A stretch of 60,086 nucleotides of DNA from Fibrobacter succinogenes. GTDB lineage: Bacteria > Fibrobacterota > Fibrobacteria > Fibrobacterales > Fibrobacteraceae. The position numbers and the translations under genes were made by a program. Position 1 is the first letter of the stretch. Every line of letters begins with the position of its first letter. Location: NCBI GenBank assembly GCA_902762305.1, contig CACWNW010000027.1, positions 1 to 60,086 on the forward strand, written 5' to 3'. Of this stretch, positions 12,927 through 21,459 are shown one piece after another. The notes under the pieces were generated by a model. The model saw only the letters and a list, made by a program, of their open reading frames with translations, was not told where the DNA came from and searched no databases.

Positions 12927-14588
12927 TTAGAGCTTGCCCGGAGTCGGAAGATCGACTTTCCATGCCCCGGCTTCGTAGCCCATGGTGGAGGTGTCTACGC
13001 GGTGCAGGCTGTAACCGAAGCCGTCAGCCTCGGCGAGGCCGTCCCAGTTGTCGGAATAGAGCGTCGCATCGTGCCAGACGTAGAAGTACTTGGTTACGCC
13101 ATCGGTGTCGGTTTCCTTGGTGAAGGGTTCCTTCACCGCAATCGTTTCGCCGCGGTTCGAAAGCTTGCCCTTGTAGGTCATGATTTGTACATCGGCGGAA
13201 ATCGAGTAGGTGCTGCGGACGAAATCGGCGTTCCAGGTGGTAATGCCGAACGTCTGCATATCCACATCTTCGAGCGTTTCGGGAATCAGGAGCAGCAGGC
13301 CCTTCGGGGGGATGCTCATGCTCGGGAATTCCATGTTGATACCTTCGACCTTCCAGCCCTTCTGTACGGAGGCGCTGTAGAGGGTGACGGCGGCGTCCGA
13401 ACCGTTCACGATTTCCATGAATTCGAACGGAACCGTGGTATTGGAGCTTGCCGGATGGTAGTTGATTTCGTTGATATAGAGGGAGCCGACCTTGAGTGCG
13501 GAATTCTTTGCACCGGGGGTTGGCGTAGCAAGCGGGCCTTGGGCTGTAGAACCGTCGGAGAGGTCGACTACGCCGCTCGAGGTGTTGGCTGCCGGAACCC
13601 AGATACTCGATTCGTCGCCTTCCTGCGGGCCGCGCAGGTAGAATTCACCGCCATCGGGAGCGACAATCAGTTCTTCGTCAAACGCCGTGTTGGCTTCGAG
13701 AACGAGGTAGCCCTTTGCAGGTACAATGCCCGACTTGATGTTGAGCGTCTGGTTGCGGCGCTTGACTTCGAGAGTCCAGCCCGTAATATCGACGGCCTGG
13801 TCGCCTGCGTTGTAGACTTCAATCCAGGATTCTTCACCGGCCTTGTACGGCATGATTTCGTTGATGCGCACGTTCGTCGGGGCGACCCACTGGTCTCCGC
13901 CTACGCCCGGGGTGCCGCCATCGGCCTTGCTTGCCGCCCAGGAATTGGGCTGGGCAGCATTGCCGCCCAAGTACACGAGAGAACGGCCATTGCCGTCGGC
14001 AAGGCTCGGCCAAGGAGGTTCGTTACCGAAAGCGCAGCTGACGTCGCCTTCGCCCTGGACCTTCACGTTGACCACATCGCCTTCGTTGAAGAGCTTCACG
14101 TTCTGGGCGTCATTCCACGGTCCGAAAAGCCTGCCTGCAAATGTCGGGTAGGCGGCCTTGAATGCGGTGGGGTCGTTCGTGACCACCACGTATTCGCCCT
14201 TCTTGAGGGGTTCTGCCGGGAACGTGTAATCGACGGCGCCGCTCAGATGAAGGAAGAAATTCTGCATGTTGTCCATGTCCATGCCGCCCGCAATGTAGAT
14301 TTCAATCCATTCGAGCTTGGAATCCTTGGCATGGTACATGATCTCGGAACAGGCCATCTGCGGCTGGGCATTATCTGCGATGGAGGAGCTAGACTTCACC
14401 ACGGAACCACTGCTTCCGGGATCGACAGCGCTGCTGCCAGGAATGCCATCACTGCTTCCGGGGGTTCCCGCGCTGTTCGGCACAGAGGAGGAACTTTCCG
14501 GATCTGGGGAAGAAGGACTGTCGCATGCGGAGAATGCTCCGAGCATCGAGACCAAGGTTCCTGTCAAAAGCCACTTTTTCATGTTCAT
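12927..14588 (-). CDS. Lipoprotein with lamin-tail-like (LTD) domains
   Basis: A 553-residue surface or periplasmic lipoprotein. The start (MNMKKWLL) is set by AAAGGA about eight bases upstream; a longer frame to 14717 would overlap the VTC gene. The signal ends in the lipobox GAFSAC, followed by a Ser/Pro/Gly linker (about residues 25-70). Three immunoglobulin-like lamin-tail repeats follow. They are recognisable from ACSEIMYHAKDSKLEWIEIY, RINEIMPYKAGEESWIEVYN with DITGWTLE, and YINEINYHPASSNT with FEFMEIVN. LTD domains in bacterial surface proteins are thought to bind polymers or proteins and often accompany CotH-kinase and VTC genes. It closes the DUF4956 operon, 43 bases after the VTC gene. 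No CotH kinase domain is present. Confidence 0.85.
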   Translation of the reverse strand: MNMKKWLLTGTLVSMLGAFSACDSPSSPDPESSSSVPNSAGTPGSSDGIPGSSAVDPGSSGSVVKSSSSIADNAQPQMACSEIMYHAKDSKLEWIEIYIAGGMDMDNMQNFFLHLSGAVDYTFPAEPLKKGEYVVVTNDPTAFKAAYPTFAGRLFGPWNDAQNVKLFNEGDVVNVKVQGEGDVSCAFGNEPPWPSLADGNGRSLVYLGGNAAQPNSWAASKADGGTPGVGGDQWVAPTNVRINEIMPYKAGEESWIEVYNAGDQAVDITGWTLEVKRRNQTLNIKSGIVPAKGYLVLEANTAFDEELIVAPDGGEFYLRGPQEGDESSIWVPAANTSSGVVDLSDGSTAQGPLATPTPGAKNSALKVGSLYINEINYHPASSNTTVPFEFMEIVNGSDAAVTLYSASVQKGWKVEGINMEFPSMSIPPKGLLLLIPETLEDVDMQTFGITTWNADFVRSTYSISADVQIMTYKGKLSNRGETIAVKEPFTKETDTDGVTKYFYVWHDATLYSDNWDGLAEADGFGYSLHRVDTSTMGYEAGAWKVDLPTPGKL

Positions 14589-14631
14589 AAGGGCCATCCT
14601 TTTTGAGGTTTTACGCTCTGTAATAAAAATC

Positions 14632-15450
14632 CTAGAAGTTTCCGGCCAGTTTTGTCCAGTAGGGGGACTTGAATCGGCGCGGATTCTCGTAAACTCGTTT
14701 CCATTCGGCTGCCGCATTACCGAATTTAGAAAATGCGGAGTGCTTGAGGTTCAAAAATCTGATGAGGTCGAACATCCAGTAAGGAACTTGTGAGCAGGGA
14801 CACTTCAATTCGAGCACAGCGTCCATTCCCGGCTGGAAAAACCTCGGAAGACCGGTCGAATGCATGTAGTGCGGGTCGACCGTATAGTCGAAGCCGTTCT
14901 CCTCGCGGAAGCGCATGCCCGTGTCGATAGTGACGCGGGAGTATTCTTCGCGCAGCCCGAACCAGGCGCGACGCTTGTACTGCGTCAAAAGGCGCGGGTG
15001 GGCGTTGTGGAGTTCCGTCTTGTACAAGAAATCCTTCAGGTACATGCGGTCCTTTTCGCCCTTGCAGGGCCATTCTTCGGGTTTCATGTGCCAGACTTCG
15101 CCCGGATTGATTCCCTTGATGGTCGCACGGCTCTTGTAGCAGATGCTACGGATTTTGCGCTTGACTTCAAAATGGAATGTGCCGTCCTGTGCCGGATGCT
15201 CACCGTAGGTACGGATGCGCATGTTGAAACGGTCCAGGAGCTGCTTCTTTTTCCAGCCGAGGAATGTCCACTTCGGGGAATCTAGGTACAGGTTCGTAAT
15301 CCAGTAGAATCCGCCCGGAGTAATCTTGGAATAGTAGTCTTCTTCGCAGTACGGGGCAAGGAAAGCACCTATCCGGTCCGCCCATTCGACGGGGATGTGG
15401 TACTTGAGCTCGAAACGTTCGAGGAGGCTAAAACCGCGGGCTTCTGCCAT
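14632..15450 (-). CDS. VTC-domain protein (polyphosphate-polymerase-like)
   Basis: A 272-residue single-domain protein matching the VTC tunnel domain. In yeast Vtc4 this domain makes polyphosphate from ATP. Hallmarks are present in order: FELKYHI near residue 14 (the first ExK strand), NLYLDSP, RIRTYG, HFEVKRKI (the central basic strand), TQYKRRAWFG, VTIDTGMRF and AVLELKCP, with the last Glu and Lys. No signal peptide or transmembrane helix is seen, so it should be cytoplasmic. It starts one base after the TolC-like gene ends. Bacterial VTC proteins are commonly found beside DUF4956 membrane proteins, as here. Whether it makes polyphosphate or another polymer is not known. Confidence 0.85.
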   Translation of the reverse strand: MAEARGFSLLERFELKYHIPVEWADRIGAFLAPYCEEDYYSKITPGGFYWITNLYLDSPKWTFLGWKKKQLLDRFNMRIRTYGEHPAQDGTFHFEVKRKIRSICYKSRATIKGINPGEVWHMKPEEWPCKGEKDRMYLKDFLYKTELHNAHPRLLTQYKRRAWFGLREEYSRVTIDTGMRFREENGFDYTVDPHYMHSTGLPRFFQPGMDAVLELKCPCSQVPYWMFDLIRFLNLKHSAFSKFGNAAAEWKRVYENPRRFKSPYWTKLAGNF

Positions 15451-15451
15451 A

Positions 15452-16831
15452 CTACTTCAGAGCCTCGCGCAAGTGGTTCCCGCTGTTTTCGCGGGCAAGG
15501 ATTCCCGCGTAGTTGAGCAGTTCAAGATAGCGGGCAAAGATATCGTATTCGAGCTTGACCGCCTTCATGTCGCTTTCGAGCGCACTTTCCTTGGCACGCA
15601 GGAGCAGCAGCGGGTCGGAACCGGCATTGCGGGCGAACTGTTCCATGAACCCGCTCGCGCCCACCTGTTCCACGAATTCCTTCTGCACCTTCCACTGGCC
15701 AATCAGCGCGAGCACTTCTTCGGTGAGGCGCGCCACCTTCTGGTTAATGTCACGCACGTCGGCGAGATAGTCGCTCTCGGCATCGAGCTTTGCCACCTGG
15801 AGCTTGAGGTCGGAATCCTTACCGCTGTCAAAGAACGGCAGGCGGAACGCGAGATTCACGAAGAACTTGTCGGCCGTCTTGCGGGTGTCCTTGTCTGGGA
15901 CGAGAAAATCCGCTGTTTCGGCACAATTTACAGCGGTCGCGCAACCCGTTTTTGTTTTAAAATCTTCTACATAATCGCGATACTGCCCTGTACCAAACAC
16001 ATCAGATGCGTCCAAAGTCTTGTACTTTTCCATGCGGGATTCAATCTGCAGGGAGTAACCGATGCCGATATGCGAGATGTAGTCGCGGCCCTTGCTCACG
16101 TCCTGCTTGGCCTGCGCCACTTCGCTGTCGCGCTTGCCGCGGGCCATCGCCACCAGCGGGAAGTTCTCGTTCACTTCTACGCCGTTCGAGAGGATCTGGG
16201 CAAGTTCATCCATCGTCGGGAGGAACGAGGAATCCAGATTCACTTCGTCGAAGTCGGGCACCCAGATTTTCATCTTGAGTTCCGCATCGCGGAGTGCAGT
16301 GCTGTCCGAAAGCAGATCAGCCTTGATGGACGCGCTTTTCTCGAGCGTGCTCATCAGGTCTTCGGCATTGAACGTCGCCGAACCGGACTTGAGGTGCAGA
16401 ACCTCGATGCGGTCGGTGTTCACCTGCAACAGCTGCTTGTTGATTTCGTTGATTTTTTTGCGCATCACGTAGCGCACGCCACGTTCGTAGCGGTCGTAGA
16501 GCAACAGCGAACGTTCTACGCCAAAGCGGGCCTTTTCGTAGTCTCTTACGGCATCGGCACGTTCCTTGTCGGCAGCACTTTCGCCGAATGTCTTTGGGCT
16601 CATGCGGAGTTCAAAATCGTGTTTGGCAAAACTGAAACCGTCCAACTGGTAACGTAGTTCCAGCTTGTCCCAGAGTTTCGTGCTCCTGCCGGAAGCAGTT
16701 GCCTCGGAACGCTTCTGTGCCGCCTCGTAACGGGGGTCGCTTTGCGCAGACTGTATGAGCCTGTCCCAAGTGAGAGGGCCAGCGAATACTGCTGCCGAAA
16801 GCAATGCGGGGAGTGCAAAAATGCGCTTCAT
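15452..16831 (-). CDS. TolC-like outer-membrane protein of the DUF4956-VTC operon
   Basis: A 459-residue protein with a signal peptide (MKRIFALPALLSAAVFAGPL) and a long helical body rich in Glu/Lys/Ala. Segments typical of efflux-channel proteins are LTWDRLIQSAQSDPRYEAAQ at the mature N-terminus and the paired helical repeats NQKVARLTEEVLALIGQWKV and LLRAKESALESDMKAVKLEY. The beta-strand part NLAFRLPFFDSGKDSDLK resembles the second half of TolC proteins. Similarity to standard TolC is weaker than for the 10919 gene. Its start overlaps the adaptor stop by one base at 16831, so the two are coupled. It should provide the outer-membrane exit of the system. Confidence 0.75.
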   Translation of the reverse strand: MKRIFALPALLSAAVFAGPLTWDRLIQSAQSDPRYEAAQKRSEATASGRSTKLWDKLELRYQLDGFSFAKHDFELRMSPKTFGESAADKERADAVRDYEKARFGVERSLLLYDRYERGVRYVMRKKINEINKQLLQVNTDRIEVLHLKSGSATFNAEDLMSTLEKSASIKADLLSDSTALRDAELKMKIWVPDFDEVNLDSSFLPTMDELAQILSNGVEVNENFPLVAMARGKRDSEVAQAKQDVSKGRDYISHIGIGYSLQIESRMEKYKTLDASDVFGTGQYRDYVEDFKTKTGCATAVNCAETADFLVPDKDTRKTADKFFVNLAFRLPFFDSGKDSDLKLQVAKLDAESDYLADVRDINQKVARLTEEVLALIGQWKVQKEFVEQVGASGFMEQFARNAGSDPLLLLRAKESALESDMKAVKLEYDIFARYLELLNYAGILARENSGNHLREALK

Positions 16832-17931
16832 TATTTTTTACCGTCTTTCTTGAGGTGTAAAACGCTTGTCTCGGTGATGGTCACCATCTCGCCCAGGAGG
16901 AACGGGTTGTCTTCGGGAATCTTGATGGTCACTTCACGGCCGTAGACGGGCAGTTCGGGCATCTTCCACATACGGGTCGGGAAGGGGACGATACGGCTGG
17001 AGAGGCCGACAACTTCGCCAACCACGGCCTTTCCCGTACCGGCGAGCGTGGTCACCTTCACGGCTTCACCCACGTTCATGTTTTGGTAAATCTGTTCGTT
17101 GATGTAACCGCGCACCAAGGTCGGGCGCTTGTGGGTGAGCGTAACGATCGGGGCGAAACTCGAAACCTTTTCACCGTCGCGGACGTTCACGTCACCGACG
17201 ACCCAGTTTTCCTTGGCAATCTGGATGAGTTCTTCCTGCTGCTTCTTGAGTTCTTCGAGTTCCTTCTTCAGGTTCTCGGCTTCGCTCTTGCCGGTGGTTT
17301 TTTGGAGCCTGCCGCTGCCGCGGAGGAGCGCAATCTGTTCGTTCGCGCTCTTGGTTGCAAGCGCAAGTTCGTTCTTGAGGCTCTTGATGCGCAAGGCCAT
17401 CGCGTCGTTGCCGTCACCGCCGGACTTGGAGTTCGAGAGGCTCTTGAGCTTGGCGGAAATGGCCTTGTTGCTGTTGTATTCCGTTTCCAGGTTGCGAATT
17501 TCGGCGGAGAGGGCCAGGCGGCGGGTCTCGAGGTTCGCCTTGACTTCGGCCACCTTCTGGTCGATTTCGGCGGAACTCAGGTTGCTGCGGCCTTCGAGGG
17601 CGTCAAGTTCGCGGGTAACTTCGGAGATGCGGAGCGTAAGGTCGGGGCGGTTGATTTCGACAATCGTGTCGCCCACCTGGATTTCCTGGCCGGGAACCAC
17701 GTGCACCTTCACGATTTCGGTCGCGGAAGGCACGCTGATGATGGTTTCGCTCGCTTCGGCGATACCGCGGAACATGGCTGCCTTGCCCTGGTAGACGAGG
17801 CCGAGTACGATAGCGATGATAACGCACAGGGCCCATGCGATGGAAAGCTTGTGGCTGTAGACATATGCCACGCCGGCGTTATTCTTGTGGGTGTTCCAGA
17901 AATTATCGAGCAAATCTTCAAGCTTGTTCAT
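16831..17931 (-). CDS. HlyD-like adaptor of the DUF4956-VTC operon
   Basis: A 366-residue membrane fusion protein. A short cytoplasmic N-terminus is followed by one transmembrane helix (about residues 29-48, SIAWALCVIIAIVLGLVY). The first lipoyl half (VPSATEIVKVHVVPGQEIQV) comes next, then a long coiled coil (about residues 85-225). The second half (NWVVGDVNVRDGEKVSSFAP) and a beta-barrel domain ending in a basic tail complete it. Its position between a polytopic DUF4956 protein and a TolC-like protein suggests a trans-envelope conduit. It starts nine bases after DUF4956. Confidence 0.82.
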   Translation of the reverse strand: MNKLEDLLDNFWNTHKNNAGVAYVYSHKLSIAWALCVIIAIVLGLVYQGKAAMFRGIAEASETIISVPSATEIVKVHVVPGQEIQVGDTIVEINRPDLTLRISEVTRELDALEGRSNLSSAEIDQKVAEVKANLETRRLALSAEIRNLETEYNSNKAISAKLKSLSNSKSGGDGNDAMALRIKSLKNELALATKSANEQIALLRGSGRLQKTTGKSEAENLKKELEELKKQQEELIQIAKENWVVGDVNVRDGEKVSSFAPIVTLTHKRPTLVRGYINEQIYQNMNVGEAVKVTTLAGTGKAVVGEVVGLSSRIVPFPTRMWKMPELPVYGREVTIKIPEDNPFLLGEMVTITETSVLHLKKDGKK

Positions 17932-17940
17932 TTCGGCCTC

Positions 17941-18624
17941 CTACATTTCCGTCGTGGCGTCCTGCATCATGAACTGCACGTCCGAGATGCCTTCCAGCTT
18001 GGACAGTTCGTTCAGGATTTCGGCGGCGGGTTTTGTTGCACGGAGGCGCACCTGGTAGGCCACGTCGAGGCGGGCACCGCCATCGACTTCGCGCATGGTA
18101 ATGAGGATGAATGTCTTGAGGCTCGTCTTCATGATATGTTCGACCTGTTCGCGGACCGGGCCTTCGTTCGGGAGGGCGAAGCGGAGCATGCCGTCAAAGA
18201 AATGCTTGGTGCCGAGACCCGTGCGGGAAAGGAGGAATGCTACACAGCAGAAAGCGACCGTACCACCGGCGGCAGCGCCCCAGGCGTACACACCGCATCC
18301 GATACCCGCACCTAGCGATGCGAATATGAACATGATATCTCGCGGGTCCTTGAAACTCGTACGGAAGCGGACGACCGAGAGGGCGCCCATCATACCGAGG
18401 CCACGGCCGACGTTGTCACCGATGGCCTGCATAATCATCGCAGCCGCAACCGAGCTCAAGACGATGCCCTGGACGAAGTTACGGGAATACGAAAGGCCGA
18501 GGAACGTTTTTTCGTATGTCCACCCGATCATGGAAGAGAGGATAAAGGCCAATGTAAGCGTATAGATCAGCGTGATGATCGTTGCATTGGTCGTACTAGA
18601 TTGGACCGCAAGAAGGTCTAGCAT
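17941..18624 (-). CDS. DUF4956 polytopic membrane protein
   Basis: A 227-residue protein with about four transmembrane segments in its first 150 residues (IITLIYTLTLAFILSSMIGW, FVQGIVLSSVAAAMIMQAIG, IMFIFASLGAGIGCGVYAWG, GTVAFCCVAFLLSR) and a cytoplasmic alpha/beta domain at the C-terminus. The diagnostic DUF4956 core is GALSVVRFRTSFKDPRD between helices. Function of the family is unknown, but it is repeatedly found with VTC-domain proteins. GGAGATACT precedes the ATG and marks it as the first gene of the operon. It has no pump ATPase signature. It is the likely inner-membrane component paired with the adaptor. Confidence 0.88.
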   Translation of the reverse strand: MLDLLAVQSSTTNATIITLIYTLTLAFILSSMIGWTYEKTFLGLSYSRNFVQGIVLSSVAAAMIMQAIGDNVGRGLGMMGALSVVRFRTSFKDPRDIMFIFASLGAGIGCGVYAWGAAAGGTVAFCCVAFLLSRTGLGTKHFFDGMLRFALPNEGPVREQVEHIMKTSLKTFILITMREVDGGARLDVAYQVRLRATKPAAEILNELSKLEGISDVQFMMQDATTEM

Positions 18625-18876: not shown

Positions 18877-19317
18877 ATGAAACGGAATGGAAAGAAGCGT
18901 ACTCCCATGACCCGTTCGCAGATGATGCGGGCGGTCCGTTCGGAAGATACCGTACCGGAGTTACGGGTGCGCAGGGAACTGTTCCGTGCCGGATTCCGTT
19001 ACCGCCTGCACCGCCGTGACCTGCCCGGTTCTCCGGACCTTTTCATCTTGAAATACGGGGTGGTGGTGTTCGTGAACGGGTGCTTTTGGCACCAGCATGG
19101 CTGCAAGTTCACGAGCCGGCCCAAGAGCAATCCTAGTTTCTGGAATGACAAGTTTACAAACAACGTTGTACGAGATGTGAAGACGGGCTGGAAGCTGTCC
19201 TTGCTCGGGTTCCGCACGGCGACTGTCTGGGAATGTTCCATCAAGAACGACTTCGAACGTACCATGGAACTCCTGGAGGCCTTTATCCTGGGCGACGAGG
19301 AAACCATCGAAATTTGA
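18877..19317 (+). CDS. vsr: Very short patch repair (Vsr)-type endonuclease
   Basis: A 146-residue nuclease of the Vsr/PD-(D/E)XK group. Vsr nicks next to T-G mismatches that arise when 5-methylcytosine deaminates, starting very-short-patch repair. Matching segments in order are MMRAVRSEDTVPELRVRREL, FRYRLHRRDLPGSPDLFI with the catalytic Asp, VVVFVNGCFWHQHGC, NPSFWNDKFTNNVVRD, and VWECSI near the end. Length fits the family. The start is uncertain; an ATG ten codons later at 18907 is possible. No cytosine methyltransferase gene is adjacent in this window, which is unusual because vsr normally accompanies dcm-type genes. Confidence 0.88.
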   Translation: MKRNGKKRTPMTRSQMMRAVRSEDTVPELRVRRELFRAGFRYRLHRRDLPGSPDLFILKYGVVVFVNGCFWHQHGCKFTSRPKSNPSFWNDKFTNNVVRDVKTGWKLSLLGFRTATVWECSIKNDFERTMELLEAFILGDEETIEI

Positions 19318-20214: not shown

Positions 20215-21459
20215 ATGAAAACAAGTACTCTTGGATGGGGACTGGCTTCCGTTGGAATTCTTTCGTCTATTGCAGGCTTGTGAGCTTGTGGCGATACGAC
20301 CAATATTACAGAATCCTCCAACATCGGCTCCGTGGCATCTATCAAGAAACTTCCTGAATGCAACGAAGACAACTCAGGCGAGATGAAGTATGTGGCAGAT
20401 TCTGCCGAGGTCTATTTCTGCATGGACGATGAGTGGAAGCCGATGGTTCCTCAGGCAAAAGATGGGGGAAAGGGCGATAAAGGTGATAAGGGAGACAAAG
20501 GCGATAAAGGAGATAAAGGCGACAAGGGAGATAAGGGGGACACGGGTGAATCCTGCACCGTCAAATCGATTGACGGCGGCTACAAGCTGGAATGCGCCGG
20601 TGATTCTTCTGCAGTTGTGCTGAACGGCAAGAATGGAAAGAACTGCACGTTCGAAGAGGATGGGGAAGGTTCCGTAATTGTAAAATGCGGTGACGACGAG
20701 GCGAAGTTCCCCCTGCATGTTTGCGGTGACAAGCCTTATAATCCCCAGAAGAGTTTCTGCTATGAATCGAAACTCTATAGCTGTAATGGTGAACCCTACG
20801 ATCCGACAAAACGCCTATGCGATGCCCGCGATGGCAGTCTGTACAGGATTACGGCTATTGGAGGCCAGACATGGATGTCGGAAAATCTCAATTATTCCGA
20901 CAGCGTGGCAACGCCTAGCCTGCAGAAGCGCTCGTGGTGCTATGGCAATGAAGAAAAGAAATGCGATAAATATGGTCGCCTGTATACTTGGCTTGCTGCA
21001 ATTGATTCCATGAAACTCTACGATGAAAAAGGCGTCCTTTGCACGAGCTTTGCAACTTCCTGTACGCTTCCGGATACCGTACAGGGTATTTGCCCTGATG
21101 GTTGGCACCTGCCGAAAGAGGAAGAGTGGAATGTGCTGTTTAAGTTTGTTGGCGGACAACAGCAGGCTGGCGTGCAGCTCAGGGCGAAGACGGGCTGCTA
21201 TGATTATGGTGGAGGGACTGGAATCGTCGGGCTGGACGCTTATGGCTTTTCCGCTATGCTCGGAGGTTACAGAAACGCTAGCTATGAAGAATTTAGCGCG
21301 GAAGGCTACTGGGCTAGATTCTGGAGTGCAACAGAAGAGAAGGAGCAGGACATCAAGGATCGCGCGTTCAGCTTGATTATCCCCTGTGATTTCGAGGCGA
21401 CTGGCACTGGACCTTATGAAAAGAAATCGGGCTTTTATGTTCGCTGCATAAAGGATTAA
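20215..21459 (+). pseudogene. FISUMP-domain lipoprotein with collagen-like tract, internal TGA
   Basis: The ATG at 20215 has a strong ribosome binding site (AAAGGAG) and starts a lipoprotein signal, MKTSTLGWGLASVGILSSIA. The frame then reads GL-TGA-AC-GD: a TGA at 20281-20283 takes the -2 position of the lipobox. Downstream the same frame is open for about 390 codons. It contains a KGDKGD collagen-like tract (20467-20544), Cys-rich spacer segments and a C-terminal FISUMP domain (YRITAIGGQTWMSENLNYSD, GICPDGWHLPKEEEW, GFYVRCIKD). The paralogue at 28234 has LAAC at the matching place. One base change (for example TCA or GGA to TGA) explains the stop. It may be a new pseudogene or an error; a start at 20332 would give a protein without an export signal. 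Confidence 0.75.
20467..20544 (+). repeat. Collagen-like Gly-X-Y coding repeat (KGD)
   Basis: About nine GDK/KGD triplets in a row are encoded by a 9-bp-periodic sequence of the type GGxGAyAAr. The codons vary (GGC/GGA/GGT/GGG), so the tract is conserved at protein level. It encodes a probable stalk between the lipid anchor and the FISUMP domain. Confidence 0.7.

Follow-up and report, generated by a model that had tools for sequence, protein, structure and literature searches.

Why is a VTC-domain protein, a putative polyphosphate polymerase, encoded together with the periplasmic and outer-membrane parts of an exporter? The question is raised by a 60,086-nucleotide stretch of Fibrobacter succinogenes DNA (GCA_902762305.1, contig CACWNW010000027.1), the whole of which is called the window here. 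Five of its genes, for a DUF4956 protein, a HlyD-type adaptor, a TolC-fold protein, the VTC protein and a lipoprotein with three lamin-tail domains (LTD), form one tight operon on the minus strand (12927-18624). The best reading of this operon, to which we give an even chance, is synthesis-coupled export of polyphosphate across the diderm envelope through DUF4956, HlyD and TolC, with VTC docked on the inner-membrane component. The conduit part of this reading is well supported. For docking and for the envelope-spanning arrangement the evidence is comparative, and the identity of the polymer, the pore, the direction and the energy source are inferred.

A conserved DUF4956-adaptor-channel unit

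The five genes are, in order of transcription:
17941..18624, minus strand: DUF4956 inner-membrane protein, 227 residues, with MgtC-like helices and a C-terminal cytoplasmic ACT-fold domain (Pfam PF16316, 44 bits, cut-off 30.6)
16831..17931, minus strand: HlyD-type periplasmic adaptor, 366 residues, of a distinct subfamily tied to DUF4956 (PF13437, HlyD_3, 39.4 bits, cut-off 22.2)
15452..16831, minus strand: TolC-fold outer-membrane channel, 459 residues (OEP, 20.2 bits, cut-off 22; AlphaFold2 model and Foldseek)
14632..15450, minus strand: VTC-domain protein, 272 residues, putative polyphosphate polymerase (PF09359, 105 bits, cut-off 23)
12927..14588, minus strand: predicted lipoprotein, 553 residues, with three lamin-tail domains and the lipobox FSAC (PF00932, 100.3 bits in three stretches, cut-off 34.3)

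The intergenic gaps, from DUF4956 to LTD, are 9, -1, 1 and 43 bp, the LTD gene starting at the ATG at 14588, 43 bp past the VTC stop. An earlier note on this DNA had described five genes with this span and spacing, and the coordinates of the open reading frames together with the Pfam matches confirmed it. The OEP score of the third protein lies slightly under the curated cut-off, and its AlphaFold2 model (predicted local distance difference test, pLDDT, 85) matched E. coli TolC in Foldseek with an E-value of 3.6e-11 and a TM-score of 0.64; it is therefore called TolC-fold here, a divergent relative. A Pfam scan found no ABC ATPase, RND or MFS inner-membrane pump among the five genes, in line with the absence of an ABC or RND pump already reported, which leaves no inner-membrane candidate other than DUF4956 to take the pump position.

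VTC was found in 136 of 168 Fibrobacterota genomes and DUF4956 in 133. Sixty loci of this phylum were fetched, and profile matches were preferred in gene calling because core genes lay under longer antisense open reading frames. Counting the one in the window, 44 loci belonged to the window's type, in which the genes for adaptor and channel separate DUF4956 from VTC. The order DUF4956, HlyD, TolC, VTC, LTD was kept in 40 of these 44 (in three with one inserted gene) while the flanking genes vary, so that the arrangement is not due to chance; the scattering of the genes in other Fibrobacter, which had been named beforehand as the sign against a common system, was not seen.

The adaptor subfamily is tied to DUF4956. 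Its profile, A5, reached E-values of 1e-50 or lower in 106 Fibrobacterota genomes, the next best genome giving 3.6e-25, and the adaptor adjoins DUF4956 in all 44 loci of the window's type (in L045, DUF4956 is absent from the gene calls and was placed by profile search). A short regular expression failed on many rows as an adaptor signature and was not used. In a reverse test, the adaptor profile alone was run on 249 genomes of one Bacteroidota order and found 29 genomes. In the 27 loci fetched from them, DUF4956 lay upstream in 26 (four with an intervening gene), TolC lay directly downstream in 27, and VTC was present at none. One second adaptor copy, L226 in genome G020, stands in an adaptor-TolC-LTD group that has no DUF4956; this group is preceded by a response regulator gene and a histidine-kinase-like gene, a two-component system.

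Scanning GTDB genomes with DUF4956 yielded 80 loci, of which 77 were counted for adaptor neighbours; a same-strand adaptor lay within 4.5 kb of DUF4956 in 53. The order DUF4956, HlyD, TolC recurs in about ten other diderm phyla, being seen in Delongbacteria, Spirochaetia, Ignavibacteriae, Gemmatimonadetes, Verrucomicrobiota, Acidobacteria, Bacteroidota and Balneolota; one Desulfobacterium locus holds the three genes too, but arranged differently. The loci from Bacillota and archaea carry the VTC-DUF4956 pair, often with CotH or LTD, and none of those seen had an adaptor or channel beside DUF4956. In a maximum-likelihood tree of DUF4956, the rows of the adaptor-TolC type and those around it formed one clade of 48 rows (support 100/99). 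Nested inside it were 16 Bacteroidota and Balneolota rows without VTC (support 97/94), and 11 of these 16 genomes, which carry DUF4956-HlyD-TolC, have no VTC anywhere. VTC was not found, for instance, in Algoriphagus mannitolivorans or Cyclobacterium qasimii.

Two proposals of the earlier note can be judged from this survey. The trans-envelope unit is conserved, adaptor and TolC being co-conserved with DUF4956 in Fibrobacterota and in the other diderm phyla. The VTC enzyme, to which the note gave the making of the polymer, is not obligatory; we rejected it as an indispensable part and regard the conduit as the core and the polymerase as a detachable module, because the trio persists without VTC in one Bacteroidota clade.

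A second type of Fibrobacterota locus has VTC directly before DUF4956 and carries instead a CotH kinase, weak matches to the phosphate-selective porin family Porin_O_P, or a Cthe_2159 carbohydrate-binding protein. The Porin_O_P matches beside DUF4956 (L060, L064, L070 and L074) are near the Pfam cut-off and exceed it only in L060; these proteins possibly fill the outer-membrane role at the four loci. In one Fibrobacterota family (L049, L051-L053; L056-L058) the adaptor either carries a Phytase-like propeller as a fusion or has one encoded after it; the propeller's match is above the cut-off as a separate gene (32.9 against 27.6) and weak where fused. Related propellers adjoin DUF4956 in Gemmatimonadetes, Ignavibacteriae and Poribacteria loci.

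The putative polymerase and the DUF4956 loop that tracks it

The VTC profile matched Vtc4 structures with an E-value of 2e-16. The equivalents of K200, R264, R266, K281, R361, R373, E426, S457 and K458 (native Vtc4 numbering) are conserved across 20 Fibrobacterota VTC proteins, and R264 and R266 are needed for polyphosphate synthesis by Vtc4 in yeast (PMC8749416). Their counterparts in the window protein are R78 and R80. The conserved basic residues, whose lack had been named as the sign against a polymerase, are thus present, and by alignment the active site is intact. The 272-residue chain in the window gave a VTC match only; since SPX and membrane domains are missing from it, we speak of a VTC-domain enzyme and not of a VTC complex. 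Neither PPK1 nor PPK2 was detected in the window's genome (95% complete), so that VTC is the sole candidate polyphosphate maker found there. The PPK2 search covered this genome alone, and PPK1 was found in just three genomes of the genus. Within Fibrobacterota, genomes with the five-gene operon rarely have PPK1, whereas those with the VTC-DUF4956 type commonly do; the genera being related, this pattern is suggestive only.

In the AlphaFold2 model of DUF4956 (pLDDT 84), a short helix at the N-terminus is followed by five longer ones (residues 16-135) and by a C-terminal ferredoxin-like domain. A structure search with this model placed the C-terminal domain (139-226) among ACT-type folds with Z-scores of about 10, the MgtC C-terminal domain 2lqj being among the matches. 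All matches were to the ACT domain and none to the membrane half, which is not counted as a new fold. Weak matches to Pfam MgtC were found in 44 of 60 DUF4956 relatives at E-values up to 1 (best 4e-5); the window protein is not among them, and it scored 19.7 bits against NCBIfam MgtC, far below the cut-off. An ACT-domain, MgtC-like reading has already been published for Streptococcus SIR_1592, a DUF4956 protein (PMC12345266). By the positive-inside rule applied to the charges, loops 1 and 3 are predicted to face the cytoplasm together with the ACT domain, and the N-terminus to lie outside. Two short motifs stand out in these predicted cytoplasmic loops, between transmembrane helices 3 and 4 (TM3-TM4) and 1 and 2 (TM1-TM2):
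18358..18369, minus strand: RFRT, DUF4956 residues 86-89, near-invariant basic cytoplasmic TM3-TM4 loop (conservation in 60 relatives)
18484..18498, minus strand: GLSYS, DUF4956 residues 43-47, motif G43-x-x-Y46-S47 in the cytoplasmic TM1-TM2 loop, proposed VTC docking site (VTC co-occurrence, positive-inside topology)

In RFRT, F87, R88 and T89 are invariant and R86 nearly so; this loop is a possible entry point for an anion. The TM1-TM2 motif, scored as [YFW][SNT] at positions 46-47, tracks VTC. It was present in 65 of 71 rows with a linked VTC and in all four rows that lack VTC at the locus (mostly near contig ends or broken genes) and have it in the genome. It was found in none of six rows having only an unlinked VTC, in one of 14 from VTC-less genomes, and in none of the 26 rows of a second Bacteroidota set, whose loci all lack VTC. 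The sites that are conserved within the adaptor-linked clade were also checked in other DUF4956 groups. Distant VTC-bearing relatives retain 0.73 of the cytoplasmic and 0.72 of the membrane sites; the VTC-less clade retains 0.83 of the membrane and 0.41 of the cytoplasmic sites, the TM1-TM2 loop being lowest at 0.25. The motif was lost in the Bacteroidota clade, in Poribacteria (L164, L170), in genome G036 (L060, from the alignment) and in the VTC-unlinked paralogue L050. Four DUF4956 loci with no VTC nearby (L100, L131, L137 and L174) were considered as VTC losses and rejected, VTC being present in their genomes. Because the loop motif tracks VTC while the membrane residues stay conserved, the comparison points to docking of VTC on the cytoplasmic face of DUF4956.

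The proposed route and its rivals

In the proposed mechanism, DUF4956 in the inner membrane, the adaptor in the periplasm and the TolC-fold channel in the outer membrane would form a tripartite conduit, with the VTC polymerase seated on the cytoplasmic face of DUF4956. VTC would lengthen a chain by the gamma-phosphate of ATP, and the chain would leave the VTC tunnel and enter an oligomeric DUF4956 pore by way of the basic RFRT loop. Synthesis may itself push export, by analogy with the yeast VTC complex; HlyD and TolC would carry the polymer out, and at the surface the LTD lipoprotein may act on or with it, together with CotH kinases whose genes lie elsewhere. The proposal leans on the eukaryotic VTC complex, which couples synthesis to translocation and has its catalytic domain placed over a basic membrane channel (PMC9911596).

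The window operon shares with that complex (Vtc1/3/4) the catalytic domain, its active-site residues and, as proposed here, a polymerase docked on a membrane pore that couples synthesis to translocation. It differs in lacking SPX, in having an unrelated MgtC-like ACT protein as membrane part, and in a route that would cross a second membrane by way of HlyD and TolC. In Gram-positive Pel clusters, VTC, DUF4956 and CotH have also been described as forming an accessory module, and mutants of two of these genes alter Pel-dependent aggregation (PMC7112168, PMC12345266). That module likewise has VTC and DUF4956 as neighbours, its DUF4956 has been described as MgtC-like with an ACT domain, and its CotH partner recurs in related Fibrobacterota loci; the window operon adds HlyD and TolC, and an LTD lipoprotein replaces CotH. 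As in type I secretion and the RND, MFS and ABC pumps, one operon encodes a HlyD-type adaptor, a TolC-fold channel and an inner-membrane protein, but here the last of these is DUF4956, and neither an ATPase nor a match to RND or MFS pumps is present. With the MgtC/SapB family, DUF4956 shares a helical membrane domain, a C-terminal ACT-fold domain and weak profile similarity, but the window protein reaches no MgtC cut-off and its partner genes encode export proteins and a polymerase. Nothing relevant was found in the open-access literature searched on DUF4956 joined to HlyD and TolC, or on a polyphosphate exporter.

The broader proposal is a class of trans-envelope systems in which an MgtC-like DUF4956 takes the inner-membrane place of ABC, RND and MFS pumps, a detachable VTC is docked by the GxxYS loop, and polyphosphate synthesis drives its own export to the surface; we rate this slightly short of an even chance. 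If true, it would be a dedicated bacterial route placing a phosphate polymer outside the cell, a first mechanistic role for DUF4956 that explains why VTC and DUF4956 travel together, and a new inner-membrane partner for the HlyD-TolC family. Two residues of one DUF4956 loop, Y46 and S47, should then decide VTC binding, and the VTC-less Bacteroidota version would allow the conduit to be studied separately from the polymerase.

Several points weigh against polyphosphate export. MgtC relatives are described as regulators, not channels. The five genes include no ATPase or proton-coupled pump, and the literature found holds no bacterial VTC with assayed polymerase activity. At many related VTC-DUF4956-HlyD loci, TolC is not seen in the vicinity. 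About four evolutionary events underlie the motif contrast, and since rows inside a clade are not independent, the P value of the site comparison is not to be taken at face value. L160, from a VTC-less genome, keeps the motif; because DUF4956 lies at a contig end in this archaeal metagenome-assembled genome, VTC may be missing from the assembly. Since the trio persists without any VTC in 11 of the 16 Bacteroidota genomes, the conduit has one or more further substrates or roles: there it must carry something else or receive its substrate from another enzyme.

This persistence also favours a tripartite exporter whose substrate is a different one, such as a small anion, a nucleotide or a metabolite; DUF4956 would be a secondary transporter, and VTC an accessory on the cytoplasmic face that regulates the trio or processes a phosphorylated ligand. 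The ACT domain is typically a ligand-sensing module, and TTM/CYTH relatives include phosphatases and cyclases. Against such an exporter stand the Vtc4-type polymerase residues retained by VTC and the adjacent DUF4956-VTC pair of Bacillota and archaea, which has no export partners, and we hold it to be unlikely though well within reason. A serious rival, to which we assign a smaller probability again, is that the unit provides polyphosphate or a nucleotide as an extracellular phosphoryl donor to CotH-type kinases, which would act on surface proteins or glycans with LTD as their targeting module. CotH adjoins DUF4956 in many loci, with or without VTC; CotH or LTD stands beside many VTC-less trios, and one protein between DUF4956 and HlyD fuses CotH and LTD. 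The window's genome has 13 CotH genes, four of them in tandem at G000:C1:198930-206111, and single copies of VTC and DUF4956. The CotH-VTC-DUF4956 module of Pel clusters and its aggregation phenotypes (PMC7112168, PMC12345266) fit this role as well. However, CotH is absent from the window operon (it is present beside VTC and DUF4956 at related loci such as L049), the donor is putative, and both CotH and LTD are missing near many of the VTC-less trios. The pairing and fusion of LTD with CotH bear on the earlier note, which had LTD bind the polymer: that part is not supported as written, and neither is an obligatory VTC, while the conserved unit, the intact VTC site and DUF4956 as candidate for the pump position were supported. 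A lipobox-like start was found by regular expression in 38 of 51 LTD proteins.

Phosphate homeostasis offers a further explanation, in which an MgtC-like DUF4956 senses or modulates enzymes, VTC stores phosphate inside the cell, and HlyD and TolC perform an unrelated export task from a shared operon. The MgtC similarity of DUF4956 agrees with it, as does a passage of PMC12345266 citing reports that MgtC affects ATP synthase and PhoR. It is nevertheless improbable, given that the adaptor subfamily occurs almost exclusively beside DUF4956 and that HlyD-linked DUF4956 forms a well-supported clade. Least probable of all is that the genes are ordinary neighbours, HlyD and TolC serving another pump such as the ABC-2 exporter operon directly downstream (12769-7567, minus strand). 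This operon stands next to the five genes at most loci from the window's genus, but it has its own TolC and HlyD, and most other families keep the five genes without it nearby; it was rejected as a pump supplier on these grounds.

Neighbouring genes

The ABC-2 operon comprises TolC, HlyD and two ABC-2 permeases, followed by a zinc metallopeptidase gene, and no ATPase gene directly adjoins it. The label HlyD2 in the wider locus maps denotes broad adaptor matches and not orthologues of this operon's HlyD. On the other side of the five genes, a Vsr mismatch endonuclease gene (18877-19317, plus strand) is divergent from the operon, and a further plus-strand gene (20332-21459) encodes a protein with a collagen-like GDKGDKGDK repeat.

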